The notes beneath the pieces were generated by a model. The model did not search any database. It saw only the letters and a program-made list of their open reading frames with translations, and was not told the origin of the DNA. A stretch of 16,593 nucleotides of DNA from Lactobacillus amylolyticus DSM 11664. GTDB lineage: Bacteria > Bacillota > Bacilli > Lactobacillales > Lactobacillaceae. Positions 1,263 to 16,593 of this stretch are shown here, piece by piece. Where the stretch lies: NCBI RefSeq assembly GCF_000178475.1, contig NZ_ADNY01000024.1, forward strand, positions 1 to 16,593. The letters are read 5' to 3'. The stretch's first letter is position 1. Every line of letters begins with the position of its first letter. The position numbers and the translations under genes are program-made.

Positions 1263-1380
1263 TGCTGAGAGAGATTCTGAGACGTTTAAAATCCAAAATG
1301 ATCATTAGTTTGTTTTATTAAGTTCATCTATTTTAGTCCAAAAGTAAGAACAAAGTTTATGAGTTCAGTTTTTTGCTAAG

Positions 1381-1631: not shown

Positions 1632-1653
1632 TATGACGTTAAAGAACATGTGT

Positions 1654-1682
1654 TTGCAAAAGTGCCTTAAAATTGCTATAAT
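1654..1682 (+). promoter_or_regulatory. xerS promoter
   Basis: TTGCAA (1654-1659), 17-nt spacer, then an extended -10 TGCTATAAT ending at 1682 (TATAAT at 1677-1682). It starts just after the terminator and about 45 nt before the xerS start codon. Confidence 0.7.
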
Positions 1683-1727
1683 TTAAGCAGTTGTATAATA
1701 AAAATCATAATTAGAGGTAGACATGGC

Positions 1728-2801
1728 ATGGAAACAAAAAAATATTTAGCCTTAATTCAAGTTGAATTAAATAAAATGCCAGATTATGTAAAGCAATATA
1801 ATCTAGGAACCAATCACTCTCTAGCTACGAGTTATCAATATTTAACTGAAATTAGACGTTTTTTTGAATGGCTAAGAAAAGAAGGAATTTCGAAGGCTGA
1901 TAACAATCGTCAAGTTTCCACTTCTACCCTCGCCCATTTAAGACGTAACGATATCATGCTATATATTGATTATTTACGCCATTCTAAGAATCAACAGGGA
2001 CACCTCAATTCGCCAACAACAGTTAATCGTTCAATTAATGCTTTACGTTCCCTATTCAAATTTTTGACAATTACGGCTGACAATAATCATGGCCAACCAT
2101 ATTTTGAACGTAATGTAATGCTCAAAATAGATTCTTTAAACAGCACAAAAACGCTTAATTATCGTGCTCATATTTTAGAATCTCATATGTATACTGGCAA
2201 TTTAAAATATGAATTTCTTGATTTTATTGCAAAAAATTATGAGCAACATTGTAATAAACAGGCTCTACCAGCTTTCAAAAAGAATAAGCAGCGAGATCTT
2301 GCGATTATTGCCCTAATTCTGGGAACGGGAATTCGTGTGTCTGAATGTGCTAATGTCAATTTAAAAGATCTTAATTTAAAAGATGCAGTTTTAGATGTAA
2401 CGCGTAAAGGCGGTCAGAGGGACAGTGTGCCGATTGCTGAATGGACGGTCAACTATCTGATTGAATATAAAAAGATCCGTCAGCAGCGGTATTTGGCCGA
2501 TAAAACACAAACTGCATTCTTTCTAACTCGTTGGCATGATCAAACACGTCGTATTACAAGCAATGCAATTGAAAAAATGATCAATAAATATTCGGCAGCA
2601 TTCGGTCACCCGCTTACTCCACATAAATTACGCCACACTTTAGCTTCAGAATTGTATGAAGTAACTAAGGATCAAGTTTTAGTAGCGCAACAATTGGGTC
2701 AAAAAAGTACTTCGGCAACGGATTTATATACGCATGTTAATCAAGAAAAGCAACGTGCAGCTCTTAATGAAATACCTGATCTTGATCAGCATAAGTACTA
2801 A
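1728..2801 (+). CDS. xerS: Tyrosine recombinase XerS
   Basis: A 357-residue tyrosine recombinase close in length and sequence to XerS (about 356 residues), the single recombinase that replaces XerC/XerD for dimer resolution in streptococci and lactococci. The N-terminal SAM-like DNA-binding domain spans about residues 1-130, and the catalytic domain follows from about 185. Visible catalytic residues are R203 (GTGIRVSE), K227 (TRKGGQRD), H299 and R302 (PHKLRHT) and the nucleophile Y334 (TDLYTH). The sixth conserved position, usually His or Trp (LGH), is Gln here (LGQ, residue 325). The shared block KNKQRDLAIIALILGTG strongly supports XerS over XerC/D. The start at 1728 follows AGAGG at 1713-1717; an earlier out-of-frame ATG at 1723 would give only 8 codons. 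It has its own promoter and a dif-like site just upstream. Confidence 0.9.
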   Translation: METKKYLALIQVELNKMPDYVKQYNLGTNHSLATSYQYLTEIRRFFEWLRKEGISKADNNRQVSTSTLAHLRRNDIMLYIDYLRHSKNQQGHLNSPTTVNRSINALRSLFKFLTITADNNHGQPYFERNVMLKIDSLNSTKTLNYRAHILESHMYTGNLKYEFLDFIAKNYEQHCNKQALPAFKKNKQRDLAIIALILGTGIRVSECANVNLKDLNLKDAVLDVTRKGGQRDSVPIAEWTVNYLIEYKKIRQQRYLADKTQTAFFLTRWHDQTRRITSNAIEKMINKYSAAFGHPLTPHKLRHTLASELYEVTKDQVLVAQQLGQKSTSATDLYTHVNQEKQRAALNEIPDLDQHKY

Positions 2802-2869
2802 AAACACGTACAAAAAATGTATTCTTATATATAATATCATTAATTAATCTAAAAAATCTGCTTTTATAT

Positions 2870-2898
2870 TAAACAATCTGACTTTTAAGTGCTAGAAT
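2870..2898 (+). promoter_or_regulatory. Candidate promoter of the adenosine deaminase gene
   Basis: TAAACA (2870-2875), 17-nt spacer, extended -10 TGCTAGAAT (TAGAAT at 2893-2898). The gene start is 55 nt downstream with ribosome binding site AAGGAG at 2942-2947. Confidence 0.55.
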
Positions 2899-2953
2899 AT
2901 TAACAATTTAATCTTCACTTGTTTGATAAATTAATTTGATTAAGGAGATATTT

Positions 2954-3971
2954 ATGGAAGATTTAATTGATCTGCACTTACATTTGGATGGTTCAGTACC
3001 TTTTAATACCGTTAAGAAATTAAGCAAACTGCATCATTTTCCGTTAATATCCGTTAATAAGTGATGATAAATTGCATCAGAAATTATCTGTTTCAGATAA
3101 TTGCCATAACTTAAATGAATATTTAGAAAAATTCGCCTTTCCATTAAAATTAATGCAAACAAAAACAGATTTAGAATTGATTGTTTATGAATTGTTGCGT
3201 GATTTGCGCAAACAAGGCTGTATCTATGTAGAAATGCGCTTTGCCCCACAATTACACACGCAAAAAGAATTGACGCAGGAGGAAGCTATTAGGGCCTGTG
3301 AGATTGGTTATAAAAACTTTCTTAATTGGCAAGCGGTTTTGCGTGATGGCAAACCAGCCTTGCATGCTAACTTTATTCTTTGCTGTATGCGGCTGCGTGG
3401 TAATGAAAAAGAAAACTTTGAAACTGTTGAGTTGGCTCATAAATTGATGCCGATTACTCATGTTGTTGGAATTGACCTAGCCGGCGCAGAAACCCCCGAA
3501 TTTGCTATTCACAAATATAGTAAACTTTTTGCCAAGGCAAAAGAACTTGGTGTTCCCTACACTATTCATGCAGGGGAAGCAATGGGGCCTAATTCCATTC
3601 GTGAAGCCCTGGCATTAGGAGCTAAAAGAATTGGACATGGAATTAGATGTATTGAAGATCAGAATCTAGTAAATAAATTGGCAAAGGATAAGATAACTCT
3701 TGAATGCTGTGCTACTTCCAATTTAAATACTAAAGTTTTTGATCGCCTGACTAAATATCCAGTTAGAGAATTGCTCCATGAAGGTGTTCATGTAACTTTG
3801 AATACTGATAATATGACAGTTTCTCATACTAATTTACCAACTGAGTATCGACGTCTTGAAGTAAAAACAGGTCTTTTAGCAAGTGAAGAAAAAGAAATGC
3901 TGAAGAATTCAATCCAAGCTTCATTTGCCAGTCCAAAAGAAAAACAACGTTTGACTGCTCTTTTAGGTTAA
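2954..3971 (+). pseudogene. add: Adenosine deaminase, frameshifted by a 10-bp duplication
   Basis: Adenosine deaminase converts adenosine to inosine in purine salvage. The ATG at 2954, with good AAGGAG, begins MEDLIDLHLHLDGSV, giving zinc ligands H8 and H10. This frame stops at 3062-3064 after 36 codons. The rest continues in the next frame with the family hallmarks IHAGEAMG (catalytic Glu), IGHGIR (zinc His) and LNTDNM (zinc Asp). The cause is visible: TCCGTTAATA occurs twice in tandem (3040-3049 and 3050-3059). Removing one copy rejoins the frames into HHFPLISDDKLHQ and gives an intact 335-residue protein. No other lesion is seen, so the break looks recent and could revert by slippage or recombination. 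The downstream part could start at 3072, but without the HxH motif and with no ribosome binding site it should be inactive. Confidence 0.93.
3040..3059 (+). repeat. 10-bp tandem duplication inside add
   Basis: TCCGTTAATA repeated exactly twice with no spacer. Neither edge extends further. It adds ten bases and so shifts the reading frame by one. Confidence 0.98.
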
Positions 3972-3973
3972 AT

Positions 3974-4019
3974 AAAAAAAGAAGAACAAGTAGTATCTTT
4001 TTACTACTAGTTCTTTTTT
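3974..4019. terminator. Bidirectional terminator between add and DegV gene
   Basis: AAGAACAAGTAGT (3982-3994) pairs with ACTACTAGTTCTT (4003-4015) with a single A-A mismatch. It has T residues to 4019 on the plus strand and an A-run (3974-3980), which is a T-run on the minus strand. It can serve both convergent genes. Confidence 0.85.
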
Positions 4020-4024
4020 GCTTT

Positions 4025-4903
4025 TTATTTAGTTAAATCGATTTTATCAATATCAATCATCCAAGCAATAGCGATTGATTTTTCACCTAAGTGAGTAGCA
4101 ATAACAGGACTGAATTCTGCAACATCAATAGGCAAACCAGGGAAATTTTCAGAAATAAAGTCTTTAATTCCTGCGGCCTGCTTGGCATCGTTAGAATGAA
4201 AGACAAACAAACGTAATTTATCTTTATAATCAAGCTTACTAGTTCGTTCTAACGCAATACTTTCAATCTTGCTGACTGCACGCTTCATAGAACGAATTTT
4301 ATCAAACGCAACGATTTTACCATCTTTAAAAGTTAACAGCGGCTTAATATGAAGCATTGTACCGATAAATGCACTCGCATTACTTAAACGACCACCACGA
4401 CTTAAATTTTTTAAATTATCTACGACAAACAATTCATCAATTGTTGCTCTAATTTCATCAAGATGCTTAATAATCTGTTCAGGTGTTAAGCCGTTTTTGA
4501 TCATCCTAGCAGCTGCAAGAACTAAGTATCCTTGCAAACGCACAGTTATCTTTGAATCATAAGGATATAAATGATATTCAGGATTATTGCGAGCGATGTT
4601 TTGCAATGTCTCATTATATCCAGAAATCCCGCCCGATAAAGTAATATCAATAATGGCCTCATAGCCTTCTGCATGGAGCTTATTGCAAAGTTCAATCATC
4701 TTACCCATGCTTGGCTGTGAAGTCTTAGGAAAAGCAGCACCTTGTCTTTGAGATTCAAATAGTTGCTCTGCAGTGATGTTAATGTCTTCCAAATATTCCT
4801 TGTCGCCAATAATAACAGGAATTGGCATTACGATCACATTATTTTATTTAACTTCTTCTTTAGTTAATACGCTGGTGCTATCGGTCACTAATGCAATCTT
4901 CAT
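4025..4903 (-). pseudogene. DegV-family fatty-acid-binding protein, nonsense codon near start
   Basis: DegV-family (FakB-like) proteins bind a fatty acid and present it to the kinase FakA. The natural start is the ATG at 4903, with AAAGGG just upstream, encoding MKIALVTDSTSVLTKEEVK. Codon 20 is TAA (4844-4846), after which the same frame continues NNVIVMPIPVIIGDKEY to the end: 292 codons in all, a normal family length. The second hallmark is present (TSQPS, about residues 61-65), as is NLSRGGRLSNASAFIG. A shorter product could start at GTG (4837) or the ATG at codon 26, but neither has a good ribosome binding site, and it would lack TDSTS, part of the lipid-binding core. The paralogue at the right end of the window is intact here. 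Read-through or suppression is possible but not indicated. Confidence 0.85.
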
Positions 4904-4916
4904 TATATAACCCTTT

Positions 4917-4938
4917 CATCTATAAGAATTTATAGATG
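4917..4938. promoter_or_regulatory. Hairpin/palindrome at the DegV transcription start
   Basis: CATCTATAA (4917-4925) and TTATAGATG (4930-4938) form a perfect 9-bp inverted repeat with loop GAAT. It lies between the -10 box (4940-4945) and the ribosome binding site (4911-4915), so it covers the expected start of transcription. It could be an operator, for instance for the neighbouring MarR protein, or an mRNA 5' stem-loop. Confidence 0.45.
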
Positions 4939-4939
4939 A

Positions 4940-4948
4940 ATTATAGCA
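4940..4948 (-). promoter_or_regulatory. Extended -10 promoter of the DegV gene
   Basis: On the minus strand the sequence reads TGCTATAAT, a consensus extended -10. The -35 at 17-nt spacing is poor (TCGAAC), which extended -10 promoters tolerate. It lies 37 nt upstream of the ATG at 4903, in the gap after the marR-like gene. Confidence 0.65.
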
Positions 4949-4972
4949 TAAATTGAGCTCAAGTTCGAATAC

Positions 4973-5389
4973 CTATCCCATTTCTGAGAAGTCGTCATAT
5001 CCCATGCTTAGATTTTTTAGTTCTTGAGTAAATTTAGTTAACTCATTTGTATCAATTTTTGAAAATAGATTTTTTTCGATCTCACTAAGTGCCTTTTTTA
5101 ATTCGGCAACTTTACTTAGCCCCACTTCACTTAGGCAAACTATTTTACTTGAATCTTTATCTGATCTGGTTATCTCAATATAATCTTGTGTTTTCTTTTG
5201 CTGAAGCTGTCTGCTTAAAGTAGACAAAGAAATTGAGAGACCTTTTGCCAATTTTCCCATCGGTAAAGGCTGATTATTATTTCCATCGAAAAATAGCAAT
5301 ATTCTTGTTTGTGAAATACTCAACTTGCATTTGTGATTTATTTCTTTTTTGACGTGCTCCGCGATGGAATTAAAAAATAAAACATCCAT
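4973..5389 (-). CDS. MarR-family transcriptional regulator
   Basis: A 138-residue protein with the winged-helix layout of MarR/SlyA proteins: an N-terminal helical dimerisation part (about 1-30), a recognition region LPMGKLAKGLSISLSTLSRQLQQ (about 42-64), a wing with basic and acidic residues (ITRSDKDSSKIVCLSEVG, about 73-90) and C-terminal helices. Such proteins are usually ligand-responsive repressors of nearby genes. The DegV gene starts 69 nt downstream on the same strand with its own promoter. Upstream is a 340-nt region with four copies of TGTGAAA on one strand or the other, including a perfect inverted repeat at a likely promoter, which suggests autoregulation. In lactic acid bacteria FabT, a MarR protein, controls fatty-acid genes; whether this relates to the DegV neighbour is speculation. 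Confidence 0.82.
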   Translation of the reverse strand: MDVLFFNSIAEHVKKEINHKCKLSISQTRILLFFDGNNNQPLPMGKLAKGLSISLSTLSRQLQQKKTQDYIEITRSDKDSSKIVCLSEVGLSKVAELKKALSEIEKNLFSKIDTNELTKFTQELKNLSMGYDDFSEMG

Positions 5390-5562
5390 ATACTACTCTT
5401 CTCCAAAGTTTGTGAGTAAATCCCAGAGATATGTAGTCAGAAACCAACACTAATGTTGTGAAACTTTATACTGACCCATCTAGGATATTTACTATGTGAA
5501 ACATAATATATTGGCTTTGACTTATGCATTAGCTAAAACTAATATTACTCTTTTATAACTAT

Positions 5563-5597
5563 AGTATACCATTTTTCACAAATAAGTCTTTGTGAAA
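5563..5597 (-). promoter_or_regulatory. Candidate promoter and operator of the MarR gene
   Basis: On the minus strand an extended -10, TGGTATACT (5571-5563), is directly preceded by a perfect 9-bp inverted repeat, TTTCACAAA (5574-5582) and TTTGTGAAA (5589-5597) with a 6-nt gap. The repeat occupies the -35 region, where a bound dimer would block polymerase. Assignment to this MarR protein is by position only. Confidence 0.5.
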
Positions 5598-5688
5598 TTC
5601 TAAAAATATTATTATATAACCAGAAGTACACTATTTTAAGATTAGCAAAATTACTAGAATCAAGTTACTTAAGCAATAAGAAAATAAT

Positions 5689-5697
5689 TGATATAAT
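5689..5697 (+). promoter_or_regulatory. rqcH promoter (extended -10)
   Basis: TGATATAAT (TATAAT at 5692-5697) with a weak -35 (TTAAGC, 5669-5674). The rqcH ATG is 33 nt downstream, after AGAGGTGA at 5717-5724. Confidence 0.65.
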
Positions 5698-5730
5698 AGA
5701 TAACGTGTTTATGTTTAGAGGTGATACCAG

Positions 5731-7422
5731 ATGGCTTTTGATGGTTTATTTATTCATAGCCTATTAACTACTTTGACCCCTACTCTAGTGAGTGGACGGT
5801 TATCCAAAATTTATCAACCATTTGATCAAGACTTGGTCCTAGTATTTCGAAAAGAAAGAGAAAATCAACAGTTGCTGATTTCGGCAAATGCTCAATATCC
5901 AAGAATGTATTTGACCAAACAGACTATTGCCAATCCAGATAAGGCACCAACGTTTGTAATGGTGCTGCGCAAATATTTGGAAGGGTCAGTTTTAAAATCG
6001 ATTGAACAAATTGGGTTGGATCGAATTGTAAACTTCCATTTCAGCAATCGAAATGAACTTGGCGATCAAGTACAACTTGTTTTATCTGTCGAATTAATGG
6101 GCCGACACAGCAACGTAATTCTTTATGATCAAGAAAGCGGAAAAATTATTGATTTGCTAAAGAGAATTAATCCTGATGAAAATCGTGCAAGAATACTTCT
6201 CCCAAGAGCAAAATATGAATTGCCACCGTTAAAACCAGGAATAAATGGTTTAAATTTAACGGAAAAAGAATTTGAAGAACTAAAAAGGCAAAATCCTCTT
6301 CCTAGTGATTTTGTTAGAAAAATGGATGGTCTAGATCGTGATGATCGGATGGAACTAGAGGGCTATCTTGAAGATGAATTTTCATTTGCTTCTTTTCAAA
6401 CTTTCTTCGAACAATTTAATCATCCAAAGGCTTTTGTTCTTAAAACTCCGAGAAATAAACGAAAGATATTTCCTTACCTTCCCTATCATTTGGATCTGGA
6501 AAAAGAAAGCAGTGATCCAGATTTGAACCATGCACTTGATGAGTTTTATGAATATCAAGCAAATCGAGATTGGGTTAAACAGCGAGCTGCAAAGGTTGAA
6601 CGAGTTGTTAAAAACGAGCAGAAAAAATTAACTAAGAAAATTGCAAAATTGCAAAAACATCTTGATTTAGCTGAAAATTCAGAAGGCTATCGTATTCGTG
6701 GTGAAATTTTAAATGCAAATTTGTATCAGGTTAAACCTGGAATGACGGAAGTAGATTTGCCAAATTATTATGATAATAATCGCCCGTTAAAGGTAAAATT
6801 GGATCCGGCCCTTTCTCCAGCACGAAATGCACAAAAGTATTTCACCAGATATAAGAAACTGCGAGATTCAATTAAACACGTGCATGAACAAATAAAGATT
6901 GCACAAGCTAATTTGGCCTACTTTGATTCAATTCAAACAGCTATTGATAATGCTGATCCTCAGGATATTGATCAGATCAATGAAGAATTACAAAATCAGG
7001 GTTATATTAGCAAACCACAGAAACATGTTCGCCGTAAAAAGATTACTGAACGTAATTTAAACAAATTCAAACTTTCATCAGGTAAAACCGTTTTTGTTGG
7101 AAAGAATAATTATCAAAACGATTGGTTGACTTTAAAGAAAGCAAATAAGAATGATTATTGGTTCCATGTTAAAAATATGCCAGGCTCTCACGTTATTCTT
7201 CGTGATGATCAACCTACTCCTGAAGATATTAAAGAAGCAGCTGAAATTGCCGCCTTCTTTTCAAAAGGAAAGCTTTCTGCCCATGTTCAAGTGGATTATG
7301 TTCAAGACAAGCGGGTTAAAAAACCAAATGGTGCGAAACCAGGATTTGTAATCTACACAGGGCAAAATTCGATTGAAGTTACCCCTGAAGAAAAAAGCGT
7401 TATGTCAAAGAGAATTGATTAA
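5731..7422 (+). CDS. rqcH: RqcH, ribosome quality control factor (NFACT/FbpA family)
   Basis: A 563-residue NFACT-family protein, the usual length. RqcH binds stalled 50S-peptidyl-tRNA complexes and recruits tRNA-Ala to add C-terminal alanine tails that mark nascent chains for degradation. The NFACT-N domain occupies about 1-180, including ELMGRHSN (121-128) and the Asp-Arg pair D97/R98 needed for tailing in Bacillus subtilis RqcH. A helix-hairpin-helix-like part follows to about 270, then a charged coiled coil (about 275-400). The C-terminal NFACT-R domain (about 445-555) contains DYWFHVKNMPGSHVIL (475-490). Homologues were long annotated as fibronectin-binding protein FbpA; there is no signal peptide, so a cytosolic role is primary and surface binding is secondary at best. 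It is monocistronic: own promoter in front, strong terminator behind. Confidence 0.93.
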   Translation: MAFDGLFIHSLLTTLTPTLVSGRLSKIYQPFDQDLVLVFRKERENQQLLISANAQYPRMYLTKQTIANPDKAPTFVMVLRKYLEGSVLKSIEQIGLDRIVNFHFSNRNELGDQVQLVLSVELMGRHSNVILYDQESGKIIDLLKRINPDENRARILLPRAKYELPPLKPGINGLNLTEKEFEELKRQNPLPSDFVRKMDGLDRDDRMELEGYLEDEFSFASFQTFFEQFNHPKAFVLKTPRNKRKIFPYLPYHLDLEKESSDPDLNHALDEFYEYQANRDWVKQRAAKVERVVKNEQKKLTKKIAKLQKHLDLAENSEGYRIRGEILNANLYQVKPGMTEVDLPNYYDNNRPLKVKLDPALSPARNAQKYFTRYKKLRDSIKHVHEQIKIAQANLAYFDSIQTAIDNADPQDIDQINEELQNQGYISKPQKHVRRKKITERNLNKFKLSSGKTVFVGKNNYQNDWLTLKKANKNDYWFHVKNMPGSHVILRDDQPTPEDIKEAAEIAAFFSKGKLSAHVQVDYVQDKRVKKPNGAKPGFVIYTGQNSIEVTPEEKSVMSKRID

Positions 7423-7436
7423 TGAAATTTAAATAT

Positions 7437-7472
7437 AAAAAAGACATTCGGAAAGAGCCGAATGTCTTTTTT
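7437..7472. terminator. Strong bidirectional terminator between rqcH and carB
   Basis: Perfect 15-bp stem, AAAAAAGACATTCGG (7437-7451) against CCGAATGTCTTTTTT (7458-7472), loop AAAGAG. The T-run on either strand lets it end both the convergent rqcH transcript and the fhs-to-carB operon. Confidence 0.95.
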
Positions 7473-7478
7473 GATTTG

Positions 7479-10400
7479 TTAAATTGGTTGAGTAGTTAAA
7501 GACAAAGATTCTAGAAAATCTAAAATTAATTCGGCTGTTTCTATGCTTGAAAAAACTGGGATGTGAGTGTATAAAGCTTGATCCCTGATTCTAATTGCAT
7601 CAGCACTGGCGGCATCAGATAAATTAGTAACATTAACGACCATTACAATTTTATGTTGCCGAATTTTATCAAGCAAATTCTTAGGATTCTTGTGTACTTT
7701 GTCAACAATCCCAGTAGTGATTCCCGCTTCCGCAAACATTGTTGCAGTACCTTCAGTGGCCACCAGTTTAAACCCAAGTCGATCAAATCGACGAGCTAAA
7801 CTGGTTACTCTTTCCTTATCTTCGTCACGAACAGAGATGAAGATCGTTCCATAACTTGGAATATGTAAATCACTGGCTTCACATCCCTTATACAGTGCTT
7901 TGGCAAGCTGAGTATCTCGTCCCATAACTGAGCCAGATGACTTCATTTTTGAATCAAAAGTATTATAGCTGTTGTAATTGATGTAAGAAAAGACAGGCAT
8001 CTTTACATGAATAAAATCATTAGTCGTCCATAATTCTTCGTGATAGCCAAGATCAGCCAAATTCTTACCAGCGATTACTTGAGTAGCACAAGCAGCTAAA
8101 TCCTTACCTAGTGACTTGGACAAGAAAGCAACATTGTGACCAGCATAAGGCTTAATTTGCAATAAGTATAATTCACCATTCACCATTAGGAAGTGTAAGT
8201 TATAAATTCCCCTAGTTGATAACTGATTAATTAAGTTAATCGAATAATGTGCTAGCCTTATTTGACCATCCGTTTTTAAGTTTTGTGCTTTAAAAACGGC
8301 GATTGAATCTGAGGCATGTGATCCTGTTTGTTCCAAATGTTCAATTATTCCAGGAATAGTAGTTTGTTGGCCATCAGAGATCGCAGTTACTTCATATTTA
8401 TTGCCTTCGATAAACCTTGAAACAGTAATTTGATCTAACTGATTTTCATCTAGATACTTTTTAACAGCAGGAACATCGTAAACAACAGCTGATTTTTGCT
8501 TGATTTCTTTACTGAATCCTCCGATCAAAATTGGGAAGCCATAGTTATTTACGAATTTGACAACTTCTTTCTGGTCATGAGTAGTCAAAGATGGCACTCT
8601 TTTAAGTCCAGCAACTGGTTTTAGCAAAAGATTCTTAATTTTATCATGTAGATTGCCGTTTGAGCGACCAAGGATATTCAGACCGCTTTCGATCAGTTTT
8701 TGACTTAAAGAACTAACTTTCTTACCAGAAAATTGCAATAAAACATCTTTAATTCCCTCTTTGTGGGCCACTTTTACAATATTCTCGACAGTGATTGGAT
8801 CAAAATAAATACGGTCAACGTTCTTAAAGCGCTCAGCTATTGATTCATCATTGTTAGATAGCAGAATGGTTTCATAACCAATATTATGTAAAGTCTCAGT
8901 AGCATGTGAAAGTATATAGTCAAATTCACTAGTTACTGAAACCTGCAATGGCAGCATGCCAATGATTAAAACTTTCTTCTTAGAAGATAATGGTTGTACT
9001 TCGTTTTGAACATCATAGGCGCTGTAATAGCTTTGAATATTTGGTTTGTAGATACCAGCTGAACCATCAATTTGAAGATAAGCTGGTTTAAGATTGAATT
9101 GCTGCAATTTCTGCTCTATTTCATCTATTTTTGTATTGCGCAAAAGTGCTAATAAGTGATTTGAAAATCCTCGTCTTTTTGCTTCGATTAAAAGATCGAC
9201 GTTTAGTTTTTCTGCATCGTGAACTTTTTGCGCAATCAAAATAATGTTTTGCAATTTTTGGTAATAAACGGGATGCAGGTATACGATATCTTGCAGATTA
9301 CTATAAGACATGCCCTTTGCAATGGCTGCTAAAAGTCTGATCAAATGCAACTCATCAGGATGCAATAAATCCTGCAAAATTGTCTGTTCATCTTTTCGAT
9401 ATTCATGAATAAACGTTTTCCAGGCTAAATCAATATCAATTGTATAAGAAATTGCCTTTAAAAAAGCAGCTTCAAAGTTTTGCCCAATTCCCATTGCTTC
9501 GCCACTGGCTTGCATCCGATTGCCTAAAAGATAATGGTTATAACCAGATTCTGACAGTGACCAATATGGCATTTTTACGGAGAGTACATCTAAAGTTGGC
9601 TCAATTGAAGCATTTAAGCCAGAAACAGGGTCAGTTATTTCATTCAAATTGTAGCCAATCGCTACCTTGGCTACGATGTAACCAACACTATATAAGCCAG
9701 CTCTTTGAATCCAAACAGCACTTCTTGTTAAACGAGGCTTAATGGTTAGGACTTTATATTCAATTTGAGTACCATGATGGCGAATTGCAAAATGGATGCT
9801 CATAATTCCCAATAAGTTAAGATTGTCTGCAATCTTTTTACTCGTGCTGCGCAGTTCCTGAATCTGATCATTGTTTAAAGTTAAAACAGGCATGACAACA
9901 GCCGAATCACCTGAATTAATACCAACTGGTTCAATTGATCCAGCGAAATTACTGAAGACAATGTTACCGTCACGGTCGCGAATGACATTGACAATAACCT
10001 CTTCCCAGGTAGACAAGTCTTCGGTTAAACGATAGTGCTTCCAAGAAAAAGTTTCGCTTTGGCTTTCTTTTTTGAAGTAATTAATTAAATCATCTAAAGT
10101 CTTGAAGCCTAAGTGTTCGTTATGTACATATCGATGATATTTTGTAACTAAAACTGGAAATGAAACAGTTTCTTTAATTTGATCGATATGAGATAAAAGA
10201 TCATCAGTCGATAAATTAGCCAGTTGCCAGGATTGATTGACGTTAATTTTTAATTTGTTTAGCAGTTCCATTCTTTTTTGCTGATTGCCTAACGAAAGAG
10301 TTCTTGGATTTAAGGTCAGCAATTTAATATGCATTTGTTGCAAAATACCATCTTGAATTAATTTATTTGCAACCTTCAAACCAGTAGTTGAGCCATAGGC

Positions 10401-10664
10401 GGTCATGATTGCGTCAGGTTCTTCCATCCGCAAGATTCGTTTAAGGAAATCTAGCGTCATAGGTTCTAGGTAAACTGTCACGCCTTCTCTTTTATCAGTT
10501 GAAACTGTCGCTGGATTAGGATTTACCAAAACTACTTGAATTCCCTCTTCAACTAGAGCATTAATTGCGTCGCAGGCTAGCAGGTCCATTTCGGCAACGC
10601 TGCCAATTAAAGTTGGACCTGAACCAATGATTAAAACTTTATCCAAATCATTCTCTAAAGGCAT
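7479..10664 (-). CDS. carB: CarB-like carbamoyl-phosphate synthase large subunit, probably inactive
   Basis: A 1061-residue intact frame, close to the usual ~1070, with the whole CarB architecture: two ATP-grasp halves (about 1-405 and 560-930), a linker domain and a C-terminal MGS-like allosteric domain (about 935-1055). In normal CarB the halves make carboxyphosphate and carbamoyl phosphate for pyrimidines and arginine. Here key sites are changed. The first-half glycine-rich loop (RPAFTLGGTGGG in relatives) reads TKYHRYVHNEHLGF (174-187), and its GIHTGDS is GINSGDS (N250). The Mg-binding Glu-x-Asn is TIK (307-309) in half one and QIK (836-838) in half two, and the Gln partners are His (291, 824). 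The allosteric domain keeps GTIFISVRDEDKERV and LVATEGTA. It begins 4 nt after carA, with GGAGT at 10671-10675. Homology is certain; catalysis is doubtful. Confidence 0.88.
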   Translation of the reverse strand: MPLENDLDKVLIIGSGPTLIGSVAEMDLLACDAINALVEEGIQVVLVNPNPATVSTDKREGVTVYLEPMTLDFLKRILRMEEPDAIMTAYGSTTGLKVANKLIQDGILQQMHIKLLTLNPRTLSLGNQQKRMELLNKLKINVNQSWQLANLSTDDLLSHIDQIKETVSFPVLVTKYHRYVHNEHLGFKTLDDLINYFKKESQSETFSWKHYRLTEDLSTWEEVIVNVIRDRDGNIVFSNFAGSIEPVGINSGDSAVVMPVLTLNNDQIQELRSTSKKIADNLNLLGIMSIHFAIRHHGTQIEYKVLTIKPRLTRSAVWIQRAGLYSVGYIVAKVAIGYNLNEITDPVSGLNASIEPTLDVLSVKMPYWSLSESGYNHYLLGNRMQASGEAMGIGQNFEAAFLKAISYTIDIDLAWKTFIHEYRKDEQTILQDLLHPDELHLIRLLAAIAKGMSYSNLQDIVYLHPVYYQKLQNIILIAQKVHDAEKLNVDLLIEAKRRGFSNHLLALLRNTKIDEIEQKLQQFNLKPAYLQIDGSAGIYKPNIQSYYSAYDVQNEVQPLSSKKKVLIIGMLPLQVSVTSEFDYILSHATETLHNIGYETILLSNNDESIAERFKNVDRIYFDPITVENIVKVAHKEGIKDVLLQFSGKKVSSLSQKLIESGLNILGRSNGNLHDKIKNLLLKPVAGLKRVPSLTTHDQKEVVKFVNNYGFPILIGGFSKEIKQKSAVVYDVPAVKKYLDENQLDQITVSRFIEGNKYEVTAISDGQQTTIPGIIEHLEQTGSHASDSIAVFKAQNLKTDGQIRLAHYSINLINQLSTRGIYNLHFLMVNGELYLLQIKPYAGHNVAFLSKSLGKDLAACATQVIAGKNLADLGYHEELWTTNDFIHVKMPVFSYINYNSYNTFDSKMKSSGSVMGRDTQLAKALYKGCEASDLHIPSYGTIFISVRDEDKERVTSLARRFDRLGFKLVATEGTATMFAEAGITTGIVDKVHKNPKNLLDKIRQHKIVMVVNVTNLSDAASADAIRIRDQALYTHIPVFSSIETAELILDFLESLSLTTQPI

Positions 10665-10668
10665 ATTT

Positions 10669-11724
10669 TTACTCCATCATTTTTAAAAAATGGTCAAAAA
10701 TTTCAATTGCATCTAAACTGCCTGGTGCTCCTTCTGGATTAAAGGCAGTTGCAATGACCTTTTCTTTTTCCATTGTAAATCCAGCTAACAGTTCAGTATG
10801 AAGATCAAAAAATTCTTGATTCATATTTAGCTGAACACTATCAGGCAAAACTAACTGATTTATATCCATGGCCGTTTGCCAAATTGTGTTTGAATTCTGT
10901 TCAATTACGGGATAATTGATACCATCAAACTCTTGTGGCAAGTTAACCAATTCCAGCTTTAAATAATCGCTTAAAGCCAAAAAGCCCAGACCAATACCAA
11001 GAATCGGACATTTTTGGTAGAAATGGTCTAGTACAGGTTTTATTGCTTTTAAAATTTCGTCCGGCTGACCAGGACCGTTGGAAATAATAATGCCATCTGG
11101 TCTCAGATTTTCAATATCAACCGGAGTTGCATTGTATGGCAATACAGTTACATTTACTTGTCTTAAAGATAATTCACGCAACATCGAGTGCTTTAATCCT
11201 AAGTCTAAAACTGCAACCGTCTTTCCAACATTGGGTGCTGCATAAGCATTTTTTGTCGAAACAGAAGCTGATTTGTTTTTGGGCAAAACCAAGGCTTTAA
11301 TTTGATCAAAAGCATGCTCATCATCTGTATCCATGATAGAAGCCTTAATTGTTTCTTCACGCATTAAACGGTGAACCAAGGCGCGAGTATCAACATTAAA
11401 AATTGCCGGAATATTTTTTTCTTTTAAAAATAAATCTAGATCTTGGAAATTTTCGCTATCGGAAATATTCAATGCTACATCGTTAGCGATAATTCCTTTA
11501 ACAGTGGGGTCAATACTTTCATAGTCGATTGCATTGATTCCGCTATTTCCAATCATTGGTGAAGTAAAGACCAAAATTTTTCCGGCATTAGTCGGATCAG
11601 TCAAAGTTTCCTGATAACCAAAATTGGCAGTTTGAATTGCTAATTCACCAGTTGAAATGATGTTAGCACCAATCCCCTCACCTGAGAATGAACTGCCATC
11701 TTCTAGAATTAAGTAGCGTTTCAT
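10669..11724 (-). CDS. carA: CarA-like carbamoyl-phosphate synthase small subunit, dead glutaminase
   Basis: A 351-residue intact frame with the two CarA domains: the N-terminal CPSase_sm domain (about 1-135, with LILEDGSSFSGEG and VDTRALVHRLMRE) and a class I glutamine amidotransferase domain (about 168-350). CarA normally frees ammonia from glutamine for CarB. The nucleophile elbow GICLGHQ is GIGLGFL (243-249): the catalytic Cys is Gly 245, encoded GGT, one base from TGT. The catalytic His in the QYHPE motif is Asn 329 (AFNPEG); only Glu 331 remains. The SQNHG block is also lost (LNMNQEFF, 299-306). NGPGQPDE (216-223) and TGELAIQTANFGYQETLTDP survive. It sits between rluD and carB with 4-nt gaps on both sides, so it is co-transcribed with them. 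Glutamine hydrolysis by the usual mechanism is ruled out by these residues. Confidence 0.9.
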   Translation of the reverse strand: MKRYLILEDGSSFSGEGIGANIISTGELAIQTANFGYQETLTDPTNAGKILVFTSPMIGNSGINAIDYESIDPTVKGIIANDVALNISDSENFQDLDLFLKEKNIPAIFNVDTRALVHRLMREETIKASIMDTDDEHAFDQIKALVLPKNKSASVSTKNAYAAPNVGKTVAVLDLGLKHSMLRELSLRQVNVTVLPYNATPVDIENLRPDGIIISNGPGQPDEILKAIKPVLDHFYQKCPILGIGLGFLALSDYLKLELVNLPQEFDGINYPVIEQNSNTIWQTAMDINQLVLPDSVQLNMNQEFFDLHTELLAGFTMEKEKVIATAFNPEGAPGSLDAIEIFDHFLKMME

Positions 11725-11728
11725 TAAA

Positions 11729-12637
11729 TCACTTGTTTCTTCTAAGTTTATTTAAGGTTTCTTGAAATATTTTAGGCGGATCTACTTTAAATTCAAGCCA
11801 TTTTCCTGTTTTGGGATGCTTAAAGCCAAGAACTTGTGCATGCAAAAACTGCCCATTTCCCTTCAAAGTCTTTCGTGATCCATATAAAGGATCACCAGCA
11901 ACTGGATGACCTATGTAGGATAAATGAACTCTGATTTGATGAGTACGGCCAGTTTCTAGCTTGCATTGGATTAAGCTATAACCTTTAAATTGTTCAATTA
12001 CTTTAAAATGAGTTACCGCATGCTTACCACCGGCGACAACTCCCATCTTTTTGCGATCATGAGGATTGCGCGCAATTGGAGCATCGATGGTACCTTCTTC
12101 TTCTGCAAAATTGCCATGGACTATTGCCAGGTATAAACGTTTATTAGTCTTATGAGCCAATTGGTCTTCTAAAGATTCACGGACTTGGCTATTTTTTGCA
12201 ATCATCAATAAGCCAGAAGTATCTTTATCAATTCGGTGAACAATCCCAGGTCTAAAACCTTCAGGACTAGAAGCCAGATCCTTTGTATGATAAAGCAAAG
12301 CATTGACTAATGTATGATCGGGATGTCCAGCGGCTGGATGGACCACCATTCCTTGAGGTTTATTGACAACAATCACATCATTATCTTCATAAATAATATC
12401 AAGTGGGATATTTTCAGGAATAACGTCTAGCGGCTTAACCGCTGGCACAGTTACTTCAATTGCATCGCCATCTTTTACTTTATATGAAGCTTTTTCAACT
12501 TTCTGGTTGACGAGAATCAAACCGTCATCAATTAATTCTTTCACTCTAGTACGAGAAAGATCATCAATTTTATCTGCTAGGTATTTGTCTAGCCGGCCTT
12601 TTTCGTTCTCTACAGTTAATTCGTATTTTTTAGTCAT
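11729..12637 (-). CDS. rluD: RluD-family 23S rRNA pseudouridine synthase
   Basis: A 302-residue RluA/RluD-family enzyme that isomerises uridines to pseudouridine, in RluD's case in helix 69 of 23S rRNA. It has an N-terminal S4 RNA-binding domain (about 6-65, GRLDKYLADKIDDLSRTRVK) and a synthase domain (about 80-290) with the family signature HRIDKDTSGLL, whose Asp (residue 137) is catalytic. GRTHQIRVHL (about 231-240) is also typical. I chose the ATG at 12637 rather than the TTG at 12658. The ATG gives the usual N-terminus and an 8-nt ATGACTAA overlap with the lspA stop, which suggests translational coupling. No strong ribosome binding site is seen, consistent with coupling. lspA-rluD adjacency is common in Firmicutes. 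Which uridines are modified cannot be read from the sequence. Confidence 0.9.
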   Translation of the reverse strand: MTKKYELTVENEKGRLDKYLADKIDDLSRTRVKELIDDGLILVNQKVEKASYKVKDGDAIEVTVPAVKPLDVIPENIPLDIIYEDNDVIVVNKPQGMVVHPAAGHPDHTLVNALLYHTKDLASSPEGFRPGIVHRIDKDTSGLLMIAKNSQVRESLEDQLAHKTNKRLYLAIVHGNFAEEEGTIDAPIARNPHDRKKMGVVAGGKHAVTHFKVIEQFKGYSLIQCKLETGRTHQIRVHLSYIGHPVAGDPLYGSRKTLKGNGQFLHAQVLGFKHPKTGKWLEFKVDPPKIFQETLNKLRRNK

Positions 12638-13094
12638 GCTTATTTTCTTTTTCGTCAAAAAATACTAAGTAAATGAAAATTAAGATCACACCTACTGTGA
12701 TTGCAGAATCAGCAATATTAAAGATATTGAAATGAATAAAATCCAGTTGCAGCATATCAACTACGTATTTCAAATGCAAACGATCGATAAAATTACCAAT
12801 AATCCCGCCAAGAACTAATGCAATGCCAGCATCAAACCAAGTATTTTTATATTTTTTGTTAAATAAAAAGTATAAACAAACGCCAATAGTAACAATACTT
12901 ATTGCATAGAACAGCCACATTTGACCAGGAAGAACATTCCAGGCTGCTCCATTGTTTTGTAAATATGTAAAGGATAAGATCCCCGGAATAACTTGTTGAA
13001 CTTCACCTAAATGAAAGTTGGTTGCAATATAAAACTTTAAGCCTTGATCGGCAAGAACGATAAATAATGAAATAAGTAAATATAGAAACTGCAT
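12630..13094 (-). CDS. lspA: Lipoprotein signal peptidase (signal peptidase II)
   Basis: A 154-residue membrane aspartyl protease that removes signal peptides from diacylated prolipoproteins. Four hydrophobic segments are visible (about 1-20, 58-78, 87-104 and 128-146), as expected. Conserved elements are present in order: LADQGLK (D16, K20), NNGAAW (47-52), GNFIDRL (100-106), VVDM with catalytic D113 and FNIADSAI with catalytic D129. It starts 8 nt after the fhs stop and overlaps rluD by 8 nt, so it is a middle gene of the operon. The ribosome binding site is weak (GGGTT-like), again suggesting coupling. Function is well supported. Confidence 0.95.
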   Translation of the reverse strand: MQFLYLLISLFIVLADQGLKFYIATNFHLGEVQQVIPGILSFTYLQNNGAAWNVLPGQMWLFYAISIVTIGVCLYFLFNKKYKNTWFDAGIALVLGGIIGNFIDRLHLKYVVDMLQLDFIHFNIFNIADSAITVGVILIFIYLVFFDEKENKHD

Positions 13095-13102
13095 AAATTT
13101 TT

Positions 13103-14779
13103 TTAGAATAACCCACTAATTTTTCCGTTATTGTCAACGTCAATGTCAAGAGCTGCCGGATGTTTTGGCAAGCCTGGCATATCAAGAACGTGTCCAGTGG
13201 TGACAACGATAAATCTTGCACCATTTTTAAGACTGATTCCCTTCACATGAAGGGTGAAATCTTCAGGTGCGCCTAACAACTTCTTATTATCAGTAAATGA
13301 ATACTGTGTTTTGGCAATAATTACAGGTAGTTTTTCTTTACCTAATTGTTTGAGGTGACTAATCTCTTTTTCAGCCTTTTCACTGTATTCTACTTGGCTG
13401 GCATGATAAATTTTTTGGGCAACCTTTTTAATTTTTGTTTTGACGTCATCATTGTCATTATAAGTTGTCTTTAAATCTGCCTTGCCAGAGTTTGCAAGAT
13501 CAACTACGGCTTGAGCGGCTTCAATGCCACCCTTTGAACCAACATCATGATAATTAACAACTTCCGCTTGAATGCCTTGTTCTTGAATTAATTGCTTCAG
13601 CAAATCCAGTTCGACCTGTGTATCTGTATCGAAACGATTAATTAAAACAATTACCGGAACGTTATAACTACGCATGTTGTTCATATGACGTTCCAAGTTT
13701 TTGAATCCTTTTCTCAATGCTTCCAAGTTTTCTTGGCCCAAATTGTCTGTTGAGCCTTCGGCCTGGTATTTTAATGCACGAACAGTTGCAACGACGACAC
13801 TTGCATCAGGTTTCTTGTCCAAGTGCTTGGAAACAAAGTCCATAAATTTTTGACCGCCCAAATCACTGCCAAAGCCAGCTTCAGTAAGCGTGTAATCACT
13901 AAGGTGCAACGCAAGGTTGGTAGCCATAACTGAATTAGCCCCGTGAGCAATATTAGCAAAAGGTCCGCCATGAACTAAGGCCGGAGTATGTTCGATTGTT
14001 TGAACTAAGTTTGGCTTTAATGCATTAGATAAAAGAGCAGCGATAGCGCCATGGAAGCCTAAATCTTTAACATAAACTGGCTTGTCATCTGTTGTATAAG
14101 CGACGAGAATATCACCAATTCTTGCCTTTAAATCATCAATATCATTTGCTAGACAAAGAATAGCCATCAATTCATTGGCAACAGTAATTGCAAAACTTGC
14201 AGTATGTTCAATTCCATTAAATTTTGACCCTTGTCCTACAGTTACTTTCCGCAAAGCACGATCATTAACATCTAAACCGCGTTTGATCAGGATCTTTTCG
14301 GGATCAATATTTAAACTGTTGTCTTGATAAATATAGTTGTCAACTAGAGCTGCTAAAGTATCGATTGCACTGGTTAAAGCATGCATGTCGCCAGTAAAAT
14401 GAAGATTAATATCTTCCATCGGAATGATTTGGGCCATTCCACCACCGGTAGCACCACCCTTTAGTCCAAAAACAGGCCCCATTGATGGTTCTCTTAAGGT
14501 AATCATCGTTTTTTTATGGAGCTGATTATTGATGGCATCACCTAATCCAATTGTGATTGTTGACTTCCCTTCACCAGCCGGAGTTGGTGAAATAGAAGTA
14601 ACCAAGATCAATTTGCCCAGATGACCGTTTTTCTTGTTGCGATTAATTGCAGTCCAGTTTATTTTTGCTTTATCGTGACCATAAAGTTCCAAATCGCTTT
14701 CTGTTAAACCAACCTTCTTGGAAATTTCTGTAATATCTAATGCGTGAGAATTTTGTGCAATTTGAATATCTGATTTCAT
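13103..14779 (-). CDS. fhs: Formate-tetrahydrofolate ligase
   Basis: A 558-residue formyltetrahydrofolate synthetase of normal length. It joins formate to tetrahydrofolate using ATP and gives 10-formyl-THF for purine synthesis and Met-tRNA formylation. The ATP-binding loop TPAGEGKST is at 66-74, followed by the family motif [20 protein letters not shown] (about 98-117). [15 protein letters not shown] and [14 protein letters not shown] are also conserved. It is the first gene of the fhs-lspA-rluD-carA-carB operon. Ribosome binding site AGAGGT (complement of 14788-14793) lies 8 nt before the ATG. The promoter is an extended -10 about 110 nt upstream. I see no folate riboswitch in the leader. 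Confidence 0.95.
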
Positions 14780-14889
14780 ATTTGCAGACCTCTTTTTCTA
14801 ATATATTCGATTTGATTATTTTTGAAATTGTTGAAATTGATTTAGCGTTTTAGAATTTAGTCCCCTTATTTCTAAAAAATTATAATTTA

Positions 14890-14898
14890 ATTATACCA
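14890..14898 (-). promoter_or_regulatory. fhs operon promoter (extended -10)
   Basis: The minus strand reads TGGTATAAT, a consensus extended -10. The -35 at normal spacing is poor. It would drive fhs through carB with a leader of about 100 nt. It lies only about 30 nt from a plus-strand promoter-like sequence for the second DegV gene. Confidence 0.7.
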
Positions 14899-14903
14899 AA
14901 ATT

Positions 14904-14932
14904 TTACTTATTAAGTCTTAATACATTAAAAT
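14904..14932 (+). promoter_or_regulatory. Possible original promoter of the right-hand DegV gene
   Basis: TTACTT (14904-14909), 17-nt spacer, TAAAAT (14927-14932) on the plus strand. Before the IS inserted, this would have placed transcription start about 25 nt before the DegV ATG. Both boxes are weak matches. Confidence 0.35.
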
Positions 14933-14937
14933 AGATA

Positions 14938-14945
14938 CAGAGAAA
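14938..14945. repeat. IS target-site duplication, left copy
   Basis: CAGAGAAA directly before the left inverted repeat; identical to the copy at 16317-16324. Eight bp is normal for IS256-family elements. Confidence 0.95.
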
Positions 14946-14969
14946 GAAACTGTCAAATCTTTTGTGTAA
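14946..14969. repeat. IS left terminal inverted repeat
   Basis: 24 bp ending ...TTTTGTGTAA, matching the right end in inverted orientation with 4 mismatches. Confidence 0.9.
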
Positions 14970-15006
14970 ATAGATCTTTCTCATAGATTGATTTTTTATT
15001 ATTTAT

Positions 15007-16182
15007 TTAATCGAAGTAAGATTCTAAGGTGTCCTGAACCTGACCAAAGCCTTTGTGAATTCGGTTGAAGTAGCGGTCATTGTAGCTCATTGCCAGAATG
15101 CCAATGAAAGTATCAAGCGACTGTTCAGTCGGAAACTCTGCTTTGGGCTTAGGCTTGCGCTTAATGACGTTGTTAAAAGATTCAATCATGTTGGTAGAGT
15201 AAATTGAAGCTCTGATCTGCTTAGGATAATTGTAGAAGACCAGCAGGTCCGGCTCGATGTCTTTCAGGTTTCTTATGACATGATTATAACTCTTGTCCCA
15301 TTTGGCATAGAAGGCATGCAATATATCAACAGCGGCTGCTTTATTGGCTTGCTGGTGAATCTGCTTGAATTCGTTCATAATTGCCTCGCGATCCTCCACG
15401 CGTACTTTAGCGCAGATATTACGCATGACATGAACCAAGCAACGCTGGAAATGAGCTTGAGGATAGGTCTTTGCCAGTGCTGTCTTCATGCCCACAACGC
15501 CATCTAAAAGAAAAAGCTCTACTTGCTCTAAGCCACGAGATTTCATGCTTTGGAGCAGCTCCGTCCAGACTTCAATGTTTTCATTGGGCGCAATGCAGTA
15601 GTCGATAACTTCCTTGTGGCCATTAGGTTTGATACCAATGGCAATATAGACAGCTTCACGTTCAAAAGTTTCTCGGCGCAGAGGAACGTAGGTAGCGTCT
15701 AGATAAACACAGAAGAACTTATCGCTAAGCTTACGCTTGTGATAAGCCTCTACCTTGGGGATCATCTGCTTAGAAATATTGGATACTTGAGCGGGGCTGT
15801 AATGGCTGCCATACATTTTTTCAATCAAGTCAGCTATCTCTCTGGTAGTTACGCCTTTAGAGTAAAGCTTGATGATCATGTTTTCCAACACATCTGCATG
15901 CTGCTTGTAGTCAGGCAGCGTGTGCTGATGAAACAGGCCGTTGCGGTCTCGTGGCACCTGGATTTCAATTTCGCCAAACTGCGTATCCACCTTGCGAAAG
16001 TAGGCACCGTTCCTAGAATTGCCGGTATTCCAGCCGTCTCTTGCATAAGGATCATAGCCTAAAAACGCAGTTAGTTCAGCTTCTAACAAGTCATTAACTG
16101 CCTGTTGTAGTTCTTTACGCAATAAATCATTTATTTTGTCTTGATTATTGGAGTGCTTGAGCAATATTTTTGGTAAAATCAT
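15007..16182 (-). CDS. IS256-family (mutator type) transposase
   Basis: A 391-residue DDE transposase of the Transposase_mut family. The N-terminal DNA-binding half includes AELTAFLGYDPYARDGWNTGNSRNG (about 36-59). The catalytic residues appear in the family contexts: D162 (YLDATYVPL), D227 (LLDGVVGMK) and E334 (STNMIESFNNVIKRK), with the C-x2-H motif at CLVH (248-251). Length matches active members and the frame is unbroken. The ATG at 16182 is preceded by a large hairpin that pairs with the likely ribosome binding site (AGAGGAAC), which should limit translation from transcripts that start outside the element. Probably active. Confidence 0.95.
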   Translation of the reverse strand: MILPKILLKHSNNQDKINDLLRKELQQAVNDLLEAELTAFLGYDPYARDGWNTGNSRNGAYFRKVDTQFGEIEIQVPRDRNGLFHQHTLPDYKQHADVLENMIIKLYSKGVTTREIADLIEKMYGSHYSPAQVSNISKQMIPKVEAYHKRKLSDKFFCVYLDATYVPLRRETFEREAVYIAIGIKPNGHKEVIDYCIAPNENIEVWTELLQSMKSRGLEQVELFLLDGVVGMKTALAKTYPQAHFQRCLVHVMRNICAKVRVEDREAIMNEFKQIHQQANKAAAVDILHAFYAKWDKSYNHVIRNLKDIEPDLLVFYNYPKQIRASIYSTNMIESFNNVIKRKPKPKAEFPTEQSLDTFIGILAMSYNDRYFNRIHKGFGQVQDTLESYFD

Positions 16183-16187
16183 TCATG

Positions 16188-16253
16188 AAGGAGTTCCTCT
16201 TTCTGTATGTGTTTTTTGTTCAAACCAATCATACGAGAAAGGAACTCCTTTTT
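16188..16253. terminator. Long hairpin at the transposase start; SD-sequestering, terminator on plus strand
   Basis: AAGGAGTTCC (16188-16197) pairs with GGAACTCCTT (16241-16250). Pairing continues inward with small bulges to GTATG (16205-16209) and CATAC (16230-16234), loop 16210-16229. On the plus strand the stem is followed by TTTTTC, so it can end transcription heading for the DegV gene. In transposase mRNA that reads through from outside, the same stem hides the ribosome binding site. Confidence 0.7.
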
Positions 16254-16271
16254 CTAATATTTTAAGAAATT

Positions 16272-16300
16272 AATTTAAGGAATCATTCATCCTTACACAA
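16272..16300 (-). promoter_or_regulatory. Candidate transposase promoter starting in the right end
   Basis: On the minus strand TTGTGT (16300-16295, inside the inverted repeat), 17-nt spacer, TAAATT (16277-16272). Four of six consensus bases in each box. Confidence 0.4.
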
Positions 16301-16316
16301 ACTATTTTACAGTCTC
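16293..16316. repeat. IS right terminal inverted repeat
   Basis: 24 bp, the inverted partner of 14946-14969, directly before the right target duplication. Confidence 0.9.
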
Positions 16317-16324
16317 CAGAGAAA
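16317..16324. repeat. IS target-site duplication, right copy
   Basis: CAGAGAAA, identical to 14938-14945. Confidence 0.95.
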
Positions 16325-16343
16325 ATTAATGGAGGGACCAATT

Positions 16344-16593
16344 ATGAAAATTGCTGTCTTAACAGATAGTTCCGCATATTTATCAAAAGAGGATCAAGAA
16401 AAATACCACATTGATGTCATTCCTATCCCAATTATTTGGGGTGATAAAACTTATAAGGACTTAATTGATATCGGCTATGAGGAGTTTTATCAAAAACTTG
16501 AACATGCTGAAACGTTACCAACTACCTCTCAACCCTCAACCGGTGAGGTTCAAAAATATTTGGATCGTTATGTTGATGAGGGCTATACGGATG
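16344..16593 (+). CDS. DegV-family fatty-acid-binding protein, cut by window end
   Basis: The first 83 residues of a DegV/FakB-like protein, a lipid carrier that presents bound fatty acid to FakA. It begins MKIAVLTDSSAYLSKED, with the TDSS lipid-head-group motif, and has TTSQPS at 60-65, both hallmarks of the family. It is homologous to the broken gene at 4025-4903 but not identical, so it is a paralogue, not a recent copy. GGAGGG (16331-16336) lies 7 nt before the ATG. The IS insertion ends 19 nt before the start codon (after the target duplication), so the ribosome binding site is kept but any promoter to the left is now 1.4 kb away, beyond a terminator-like hairpin. Expression may be lost or altered. 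The rest of the gene is not in view. Confidence 0.92.
   Translation, partial: MKIAVLTDSSAYLSKEDQEKYHIDVIPIPIIWGDKTYKDLIDIGYEEFYQKLEHAETLPTTSQPSTGEVQKYLDRYVDEGYTD

Follow-up and report, generated by a model that had tools for sequence, protein, structure and literature searches.

The window analyzed here, a 16,593-nucleotide stretch of Lactobacillus amylolyticus DSM 11664 (contig NZ_ADNY01000024.1, positions 1 to 16,593), contains an adjacent pair of genes related to CarA and CarB, the small and large subunits of carbamoyl-phosphate synthase (CPS), in which all three catalytic centers have been replaced. We refer to these dead subunits as pCarA (351 amino acids; positions 10669..11724, minus strand) and pCarB (1061 amino acids; 7479..10664, minus strand). 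By sequence, the pair qualifies as a conserved pseudoenzyme: its catalytic residues are gone, their loss is fixed across species, both genes are under purifying selection, and full length is kept. On balance, we favor a model in which the pair is the relic of a CPS encoded in place within a pyr operon, turned into a non-catalytic nucleotide-sensing complex. The original prediction for this stretch described two full-length, adjacent frames in a tight operon, and this arrangement holds, with 4 base pairs (bp) separating pCarA from pCarB.

Both proteins preserve the domain order and fold of the CPS subunits. pCarB aligns to E. coli CarB (PDB 1bxr) over residues 1-1032 with 431 bits, at 28% identity over the structural alignment, and pCarA aligns to E. 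coli CarA (PDB 1a9x) in two stretches, 4-134 and 170-351, with 155 bits. The oligomerization domain of pCarB is still recognized by domain search, as is its allosteric MGS domain (7479..7868, minus strand; PF02142, E 5.6e-19). The pair scores above the NCBIfam cut-offs of NF003671 (690 > 599) and NF009475 (426 > 221) and below those of TIGR01369 (663 < 1027) and TIGR01368 (265 < 307); a canonical CarA from Lactobacillus scores 475 against TIGR01368, above the cut-off.

We read the catalytic positions from alignments, using the numbering of E. coli CarA and CarB and the roles that the residues have in the E. coli enzyme. In the glutaminase center of pCarA, the former nucleophile motif now reads GIGLGFL (10978..10998, minus strand), with Cys269 replaced by Gly, His272 by Phe, and Gln273 by Leu, and the former catalytic histidine motif reads FNPEG (10729..10743, minus strand), with His353 replaced by Asn. 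Glu355, within the latter motif, is retained, as are Lys202 and Glu215. In ATP-grasp 1 of pCarB, the glycine-rich loop is gone and six residues are replaced (Glu299Thr, Asn301Lys, Arg129Gln, Arg169Thr, His243Asn, and Gln285His); its metal-ligand motif, now LTIKPR (9732..9749, minus strand), varies between species. ATP-grasp 2 has lost Arg715 and its own glycine-rich loop and carries Glu841Gln, Asn843Lys, Glu761Lys, Gln829His, Arg845Tyr, and Arg848His, four of them in a metal-ligand motif that now reads LQIKPYAGHN (8133..8162, minus strand) and in which the replacements have reached or nearly reached fixation. The alignment to E. coli CarAB thus bears out the earlier claim that the glutaminase Cys and His, the Glu-x-Asn sites of both ATP-grasp halves, and the glycine-rich loops are all gone. 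The pair probably makes no carbamoyl phosphate.

In a sample of 75 Lactobacillus genomes, pCarB is present in 74 at 51-77% identity, the exception being a 0.9-Mb assembly. The frame is full length and open in 71 of the 74 carriers, cut by contig ends in two, and broken in one. Of the 73 genus loci fetched, 72 have pCarA and pCarB side by side, -17 to 16 nucleotides apart; the remaining locus is cut by a contig end. Outside the genus, in a draw of 397 genomes from the family, pCarB matches of at least 46% identity were found in G102 (51%) and in G114 and G138 (46%). Eight more family matches at 34-35% identity passed the E-value limit, and all seven of those fetched have the canonical residues. 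A dead-type small subunit at 54% identity is named Holzapfeliella. A pattern scan in which the CarB sequence was run against a collection of species genomes, and which detects close relatives only, returned 13 loci: 12 bear Lactobacillus in their title and one bears Faecalicatena absiana. In the latter (L006), the genes are ordered as in Lactobacillus and two CarB genes are Lactobacillus-like; it is probably a mislabeled or mixed assembly. Spread of the pair by plasmids was considered and rejected, as none of 54 matching plasmid records reached 60% identity.

We counted fixation across 73 pCarB and 75 pCarA sequences, including those of the window, G102, and G114. Three sequences cut by contig ends (G044, G065, G138) and the frame-broken G013 were left out for pCarB, G138 and G065 were left out for pCarA, and G075 was not fetched with its flanks. 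The original prediction had raised the question of whether the substitutions are fixed across species, and they are: Cys269Gly, His353Asn, and Gln273Leu occur in 75/75 pCarA, and Glu841Gln, Asn843Lys, Glu761Lys, Arg715Gly, and Arg848His in 73/73 pCarB. At the first ATP-grasp site, Glu299 is retained in 0 of 73 (Ser 35, Thr 25, Ala 6, others 7), and position 301 is Lys in 57, Arg in 11, Asn in one, and another residue in four. Among the pCarB matches listed, Glu841Gln and Asn843Lys occur together in 120/120 and Asn301 is retained in eight. The 120 pCarA relatives among the matches listed comprise 110 with Gly269/Asn353, eight with Cys/His, two that do not cover the sites, and none that is mixed. 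The replacements go beyond chance, because the same ones are fixed genus-wide.

Median ratios of nonsynonymous to synonymous substitution rates (dN/dS), taken over 32 close, non-independent genome pairs (fewer where the synonymous distance was too small), are 0.034 for pCarA and 0.056 for pCarB, much as in the neighboring genes, with 0.042 for RqcH, 0.053 for RluD, and 0.058 for LspA. In the pair formed by L. delbrueckii and the uncultured E27, dN/dS is 0.043 and 0.042 for the two dead subunits and 0.022 for canonical CarB. None of these values is near 1, and neutral decay of the pair is excluded. An ageing pseudogene that has so far been spared frameshifts could draw on the decayed genes nearby in the window, on the broken pCarB of L. 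hamsteri (G013), whose lesion lies in the MGS domain, and on shortened small subunits: among the matches listed, 7 of 112 dead-type small subunits are below 250 amino acids, and one of these stands for 41 sequences named L. helveticus, with a start inside the gene and no N-domain. Some of the short forms are on short contigs. Given the low dN/dS of both genes, the 71 full-length frames among 74, and the same replacements fixed across the genus, we reject the pseudogene reading and give it almost no credence. The L. hamsteri lesion lies near 12868-12877 of L013, in a genome that also lacks canonical CarB and PyrB, and may be a sequencing error.

The dead pair differs from the true enzyme in where it is conserved. 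We compared domain identities as means of 21 pairs among seven species that carry both dead and true copies. The dead copies are less alike than the true ones in pre-ATP 1 (75.9% versus 91.4%), ATP-grasp 1 (59.0% versus 87.7%), the oligomerization domain (46.2% versus 71.2%), pre-ATP 2 (61.9% versus 86.0%), ATP-grasp 2 (65.6% versus 83.6%), and GATase (69.0% versus 78.9%). The order is reversed in the MGS domain (81.4% versus 73.3%), the CarA N-domain (80.5% versus 74.7%), and the CarA linker (90.2% versus 55.1%). On the 129 MGS columns filled in all rows, identity is 81.3% for the dead and 74.3% for the true copies, with the dead copies more alike in 17 of 21 pairs. With these three regions more alike and the catalytic domains drifted, the regulatory parts of a CPS are thus better conserved in the dead complex than the working parts. 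Within the MGS domain, Lys954, Thr974, Thr977, Lys993, and Asn1015 are present in 73/73 pCarB. The columns that we take to form the nucleotide site have an entropy of 0.00-0.22 bits, depending on the list used, against 0.79 for the domain as a whole; with every list tried, their conservation exceeds that of randomly drawn MGS columns (P 0.00006-0.008).

ATP-grasp 2 has also acquired new fixed residues. At positions invariant in canonical enzymes, 19 of 75 in ATP-grasp 2 carry a newly fixed residue, including Lys761, His829, Gln841, Lys843, Tyr845, and His848; in ATP-grasp 1 the count is 8 among 102 (p 0.0025). This difference is what would be expected had ATP-grasp 2 been remodeled to serve as a new active site or ligand site, for new chemistry or for metal-free binding of an anionic ligand. 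We consider this unlikely, since positions 829, 841, and 843 hold no acidic residue, Arg715 and the glycine loop are lost, the glutamine site is now Phe/Leu, and a site list set in advance for ATP-grasp 2 shows no significant excess of conservation over its domain (P 0.074).

A second, canonical carAB, whose presence in the genome the original prediction had left to be checked, is widespread in the genus: among the 75 genomes, canonical CarB is full length in 51, split over contigs in one (G072), broken in two (G018 and G059), and absent from 21. It is encoded elsewhere in the genome, for example at L041 in a cluster with the order pyrR-pyrB-pyrC-carA-carB and with pyrD, pyrF, and pyrE nearby, and is only 30-33% identical to pCarB. 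This second copy, the genus-wide fixation, and the low dN/dS together support the earlier suggestion that the pair has been selected for a role other than catalysis. The canonical CarB of L. delbrueckii (L042, from G009) is 58% identical to that of L041 and has the allosteric-site changes K993R and N1015D; L042 CarA and CarB both group with non-Lactobacillaceae sequences in trees that carry long-branch warnings, and were possibly acquired.

PyrB is absent from exactly the 21 genomes without canonical CarB. Of these genomes, 20 retain pCarB, with 17 full-length copies, two cut by contig ends, and one broken. On a tree of the 69 rows with all five genes (G044 and G065 again left out), the pathway shows 12 losses when regain is disallowed, or 10 changes under Fitch parsimony, both counts including G102. 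These losses are firmer in G047, G048, G050, and G102, because their contigs nearly span the whole genome; G042 and G069 lie close to pathway-keeping sisters and may be incomplete assemblies. We compared summed evolutionary rates, relative to three housekeeping genes, between 21 branches without the pathway and 96 with it, using branches of at least 0.01 and counting G102, in which the pathway is absent, as pathway-bearing. The relative rate of pCarA is 0.93 without and 0.88 with the pathway (p 0.55), and that of pCarB 1.37 and 1.32 (p 0.93). Retention in 20 pathway-less genomes, together with no overall change in rate, thus means that the role needs neither true CPS nor de novo synthesis of uridine monophosphate (UMP). 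G018 holds broken remnants of canonical carB and pyrB, and in G034 pyrB has several stops beside a full-length canonical CarB; the pyr pathway is undergoing repeated loss in Lactobacillus.

These results bear on whether the dead pair might regulate true CarAB, through mixed oligomers or by titrating UMP. Full-length large subunits of both kinds coexist in 51 of the 75 genomes, and the oligomerization and MGS domains of pCarB are still recognizable. The pair is nonetheless not the sole regulator of true CPS, because pCarB persists in 20 genomes that have neither canonical CarB nor PyrB, and we reject this form of the idea. The 10 or 12 pathway losses came without a general rise in rate, and the oligomerization domain is the least conserved part of the dead pair (46% identity versus 71%). 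We regard regulation of true CarAB in any form as having a slim chance.

The dead pair occupies the place in which other Lactobacillaceae have their pyr operon. Seven canonical loci were fetched from outside the genus, and five of them (L140, L142, L143, L144, and L146) have the order lspA-rluD-pyrR-gap-pyrB-pyrC-carA-carB, which in L140, L144, and L146 continues through pyrD-pyrF-pyrE to rqcH; the gap in L140 is occupied by a permease gene. At the other two, L141 and L145, no rluD was found inside the fetched stretch. In the dead clade, L137 and L138 show the same flanks around pcarAB without pyrB, pyrC, pyrD, pyrF, and pyrE. Outside the genus, G114 retains pyrR-permease-pcarA-pcarB and G102 permease-pcarA-pcarB, each preceded by a predicted PyrR attenuator (PyrR binding site, RF00515; 55.7 bits for G114 and 56.7 bits for G102, cut-off 54). 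Canonical CarB and PyrB are encoded elsewhere in G114, and neither is found in G102. Identity of pCarA is 43-45% with the in-situ CarA of the five loci and 36-38% with the genus' canonical CarA. A branch of the CarA tree with support 97/91 separates the canonical copies of the genus from a group made up of the dead clade, the five in-situ CarA, and L186, within which the finer order is weak (88/69); the CarB tree agrees, with a very long stem and long-branch warnings. Flank synteny, CarA identity, and the CarA tree therefore make the pair most likely a relic of the in-situ pyr operon, and an origin from the genus' own canonical copy is not favored. The working CPS of Lactobacillus most likely has a separate history from the dead pair.

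The permeases of G114 and G102 belong to the NCS2 family, with a uracil permease as best model at scores below its cut-off (420 and 439 < 477). Close matches to the G114 permease (56-67% identity) occur in 45 of the 75 genus genomes, elsewhere in the genome. A role tied to this uracil-permease-like neighbor is weakened, as 29 of 30 genomes without a close match still carry pCarB.

A different neighbor, rluD, lies within 30 nucleotides upstream of pcarA in 70 of the 71 genus loci holding both. Together with the strong constraint on the CarA N-domain and linker, this proximity could indicate a structural or scaffold component of a different machine, such as one involving RluD, in which nucleotide binding would be incidental. 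Other genera have rluD beside their intact pyr operon as well, and in G012, G102, and G114 other genes separate rluD from pcarA; moreover, a scaffold would leave the conserved nucleotide site unexplained. We judge this explanation quite improbable. In L. corticis, the gene between rluD and pcarA (L012, 6912-8768) encodes a 619-amino-acid protein with a sulfatase domain (PF00884), lipoteichoic-acid-synthase-like by eye.

In the nucleotide-sensing model that we favor, the glutaminase and both phosphorylation activities would have been lost ahead of the divergence of Lactobacillus and its nearest sister lineages, and the two subunits would persist as a heteromeric complex without catalysis, retained because of its allosteric half. 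A UMP-class nucleotide is predicted, from the MGS residues, to bind the conserved MGS site and to alter the rebuilt ATP-grasp 2 pocket and the surface formed by the CarA N-domain and linker. These surfaces, judging from their fixed residues and conservation, may carry the signal or hold a second ligand, and the signal would pass to another protein independently of true CPS and de novo pyrimidine synthesis. The absence of chemistry, the ligand class, and complex formation are all predictions from sequence. Of the three roles initially proposed, a nucleotide-sensing scaffold fits best given the constraint on the MGS domain; regulation of a true CPS is not the whole role given the 20 genomes above, and another ligase-like reaction finds little support. 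A stronger version, in which a whole enzyme complex with both subunits and all three centers is now a core-genome complex dedicated to pyrimidine-nucleotide signaling that outlives the pathway, is conceivable, at slightly less than even odds in our judgment.

Several observations weigh against the sensing model, besides the broken L. hamsteri frame, the shortened small subunits, and the non-significant ATP-grasp 2 list described above. At position 1016, one of the presumed nucleotide-site positions, Thr has become Ile or Val in 72/73 pCarB, and Thr1017 varies. Our first nucleotide-site list was picked after the residues had been seen and omitted both positions; with both included, P is 0.004-0.008. 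The true enzyme likewise keeps most of the presumed nucleotide-site residues, so their retention alone is not proof of sensing. Some single branches without the pathway are faster (pCarA/pCarB 2.34/2.99 on the G043+G047 stem and 1.79/1.84 on the G004+G013 stem; 2.15 for L. hamsteri pCarB). Finally, no gene tracking the pair was found among the genomes compared.

Among known systems, E. coli CarAB (PDB 1a9x, 1bxr, 1jdb) is intact, unlike the dead pair with all three centers replaced. The canonical pyr-cluster CarAB of Lactobacillus belongs to the same family, often in the same genome, and differs in having intact catalytic residues in the copies checked. The in-situ CarAB of other Lactobacillaceae, downstream of lspA-rluD in the same place as the dead pair, also has its catalytic residues intact. 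In human CPS1, the glutaminase Cys is replaced and the enzyme uses ammonia, keeping both ATP-grasp centers and making carbamoyl phosphate. CPS1 thus resembles the pair in retaining a non-functional glutaminase half as a structural or regulatory part, and differs from it in the ATP-grasp centers. A dead glutaminase half is therefore already known, whereas a near-universal, selected pair dead at all three centers was not found described. A full-text literature search, with subscription papers and preprints outside its reach, found none on a dead CarAB pair among the papers listed; passages of two papers treat the CPS genes as ordinary (PMC3582564, PMC5453994), and a third paper concerns another protein (PMC3520985).

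Among the matches listed, the database names for the pair, where given, are carbamoyl-phosphate synthase. Species without any catalytically intact synthase would therefore appear competent for carbamoyl phosphate synthesis, which could introduce errors into metabolic models of lactobacilli and into predictions of their auxotrophies. The pair may represent a natural case of a classic enzyme whose allosteric sensing has come apart from its catalysis, kept through about 10 pathway losses, and is a near-universal gene pair of unassigned role in a heavily used genus.

In the window, rluD (11729..12658, minus strand), an ancestral flank of the pyr operon, lies directly upstream, 4 bp from the start of pCarA, and is preceded by lspA (12630..13094, minus strand). 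The downstream flank is a convergent rqcH/fbpA-type gene (5731..7422, plus strand), a gene that L140, L144, and L146 have next to their intact pyr operon too. The earlier remark that other genes of this window are broken holds, judged by eye. Positions 385-1728 contain scrambled coding remains of at least one gene, with many stops and a glyoxalase-like start. Positions 2801-3971 contain an adenosine deaminase gene, the 5' part of which, by its translation, lies in a different frame from the listed TTG-started one.

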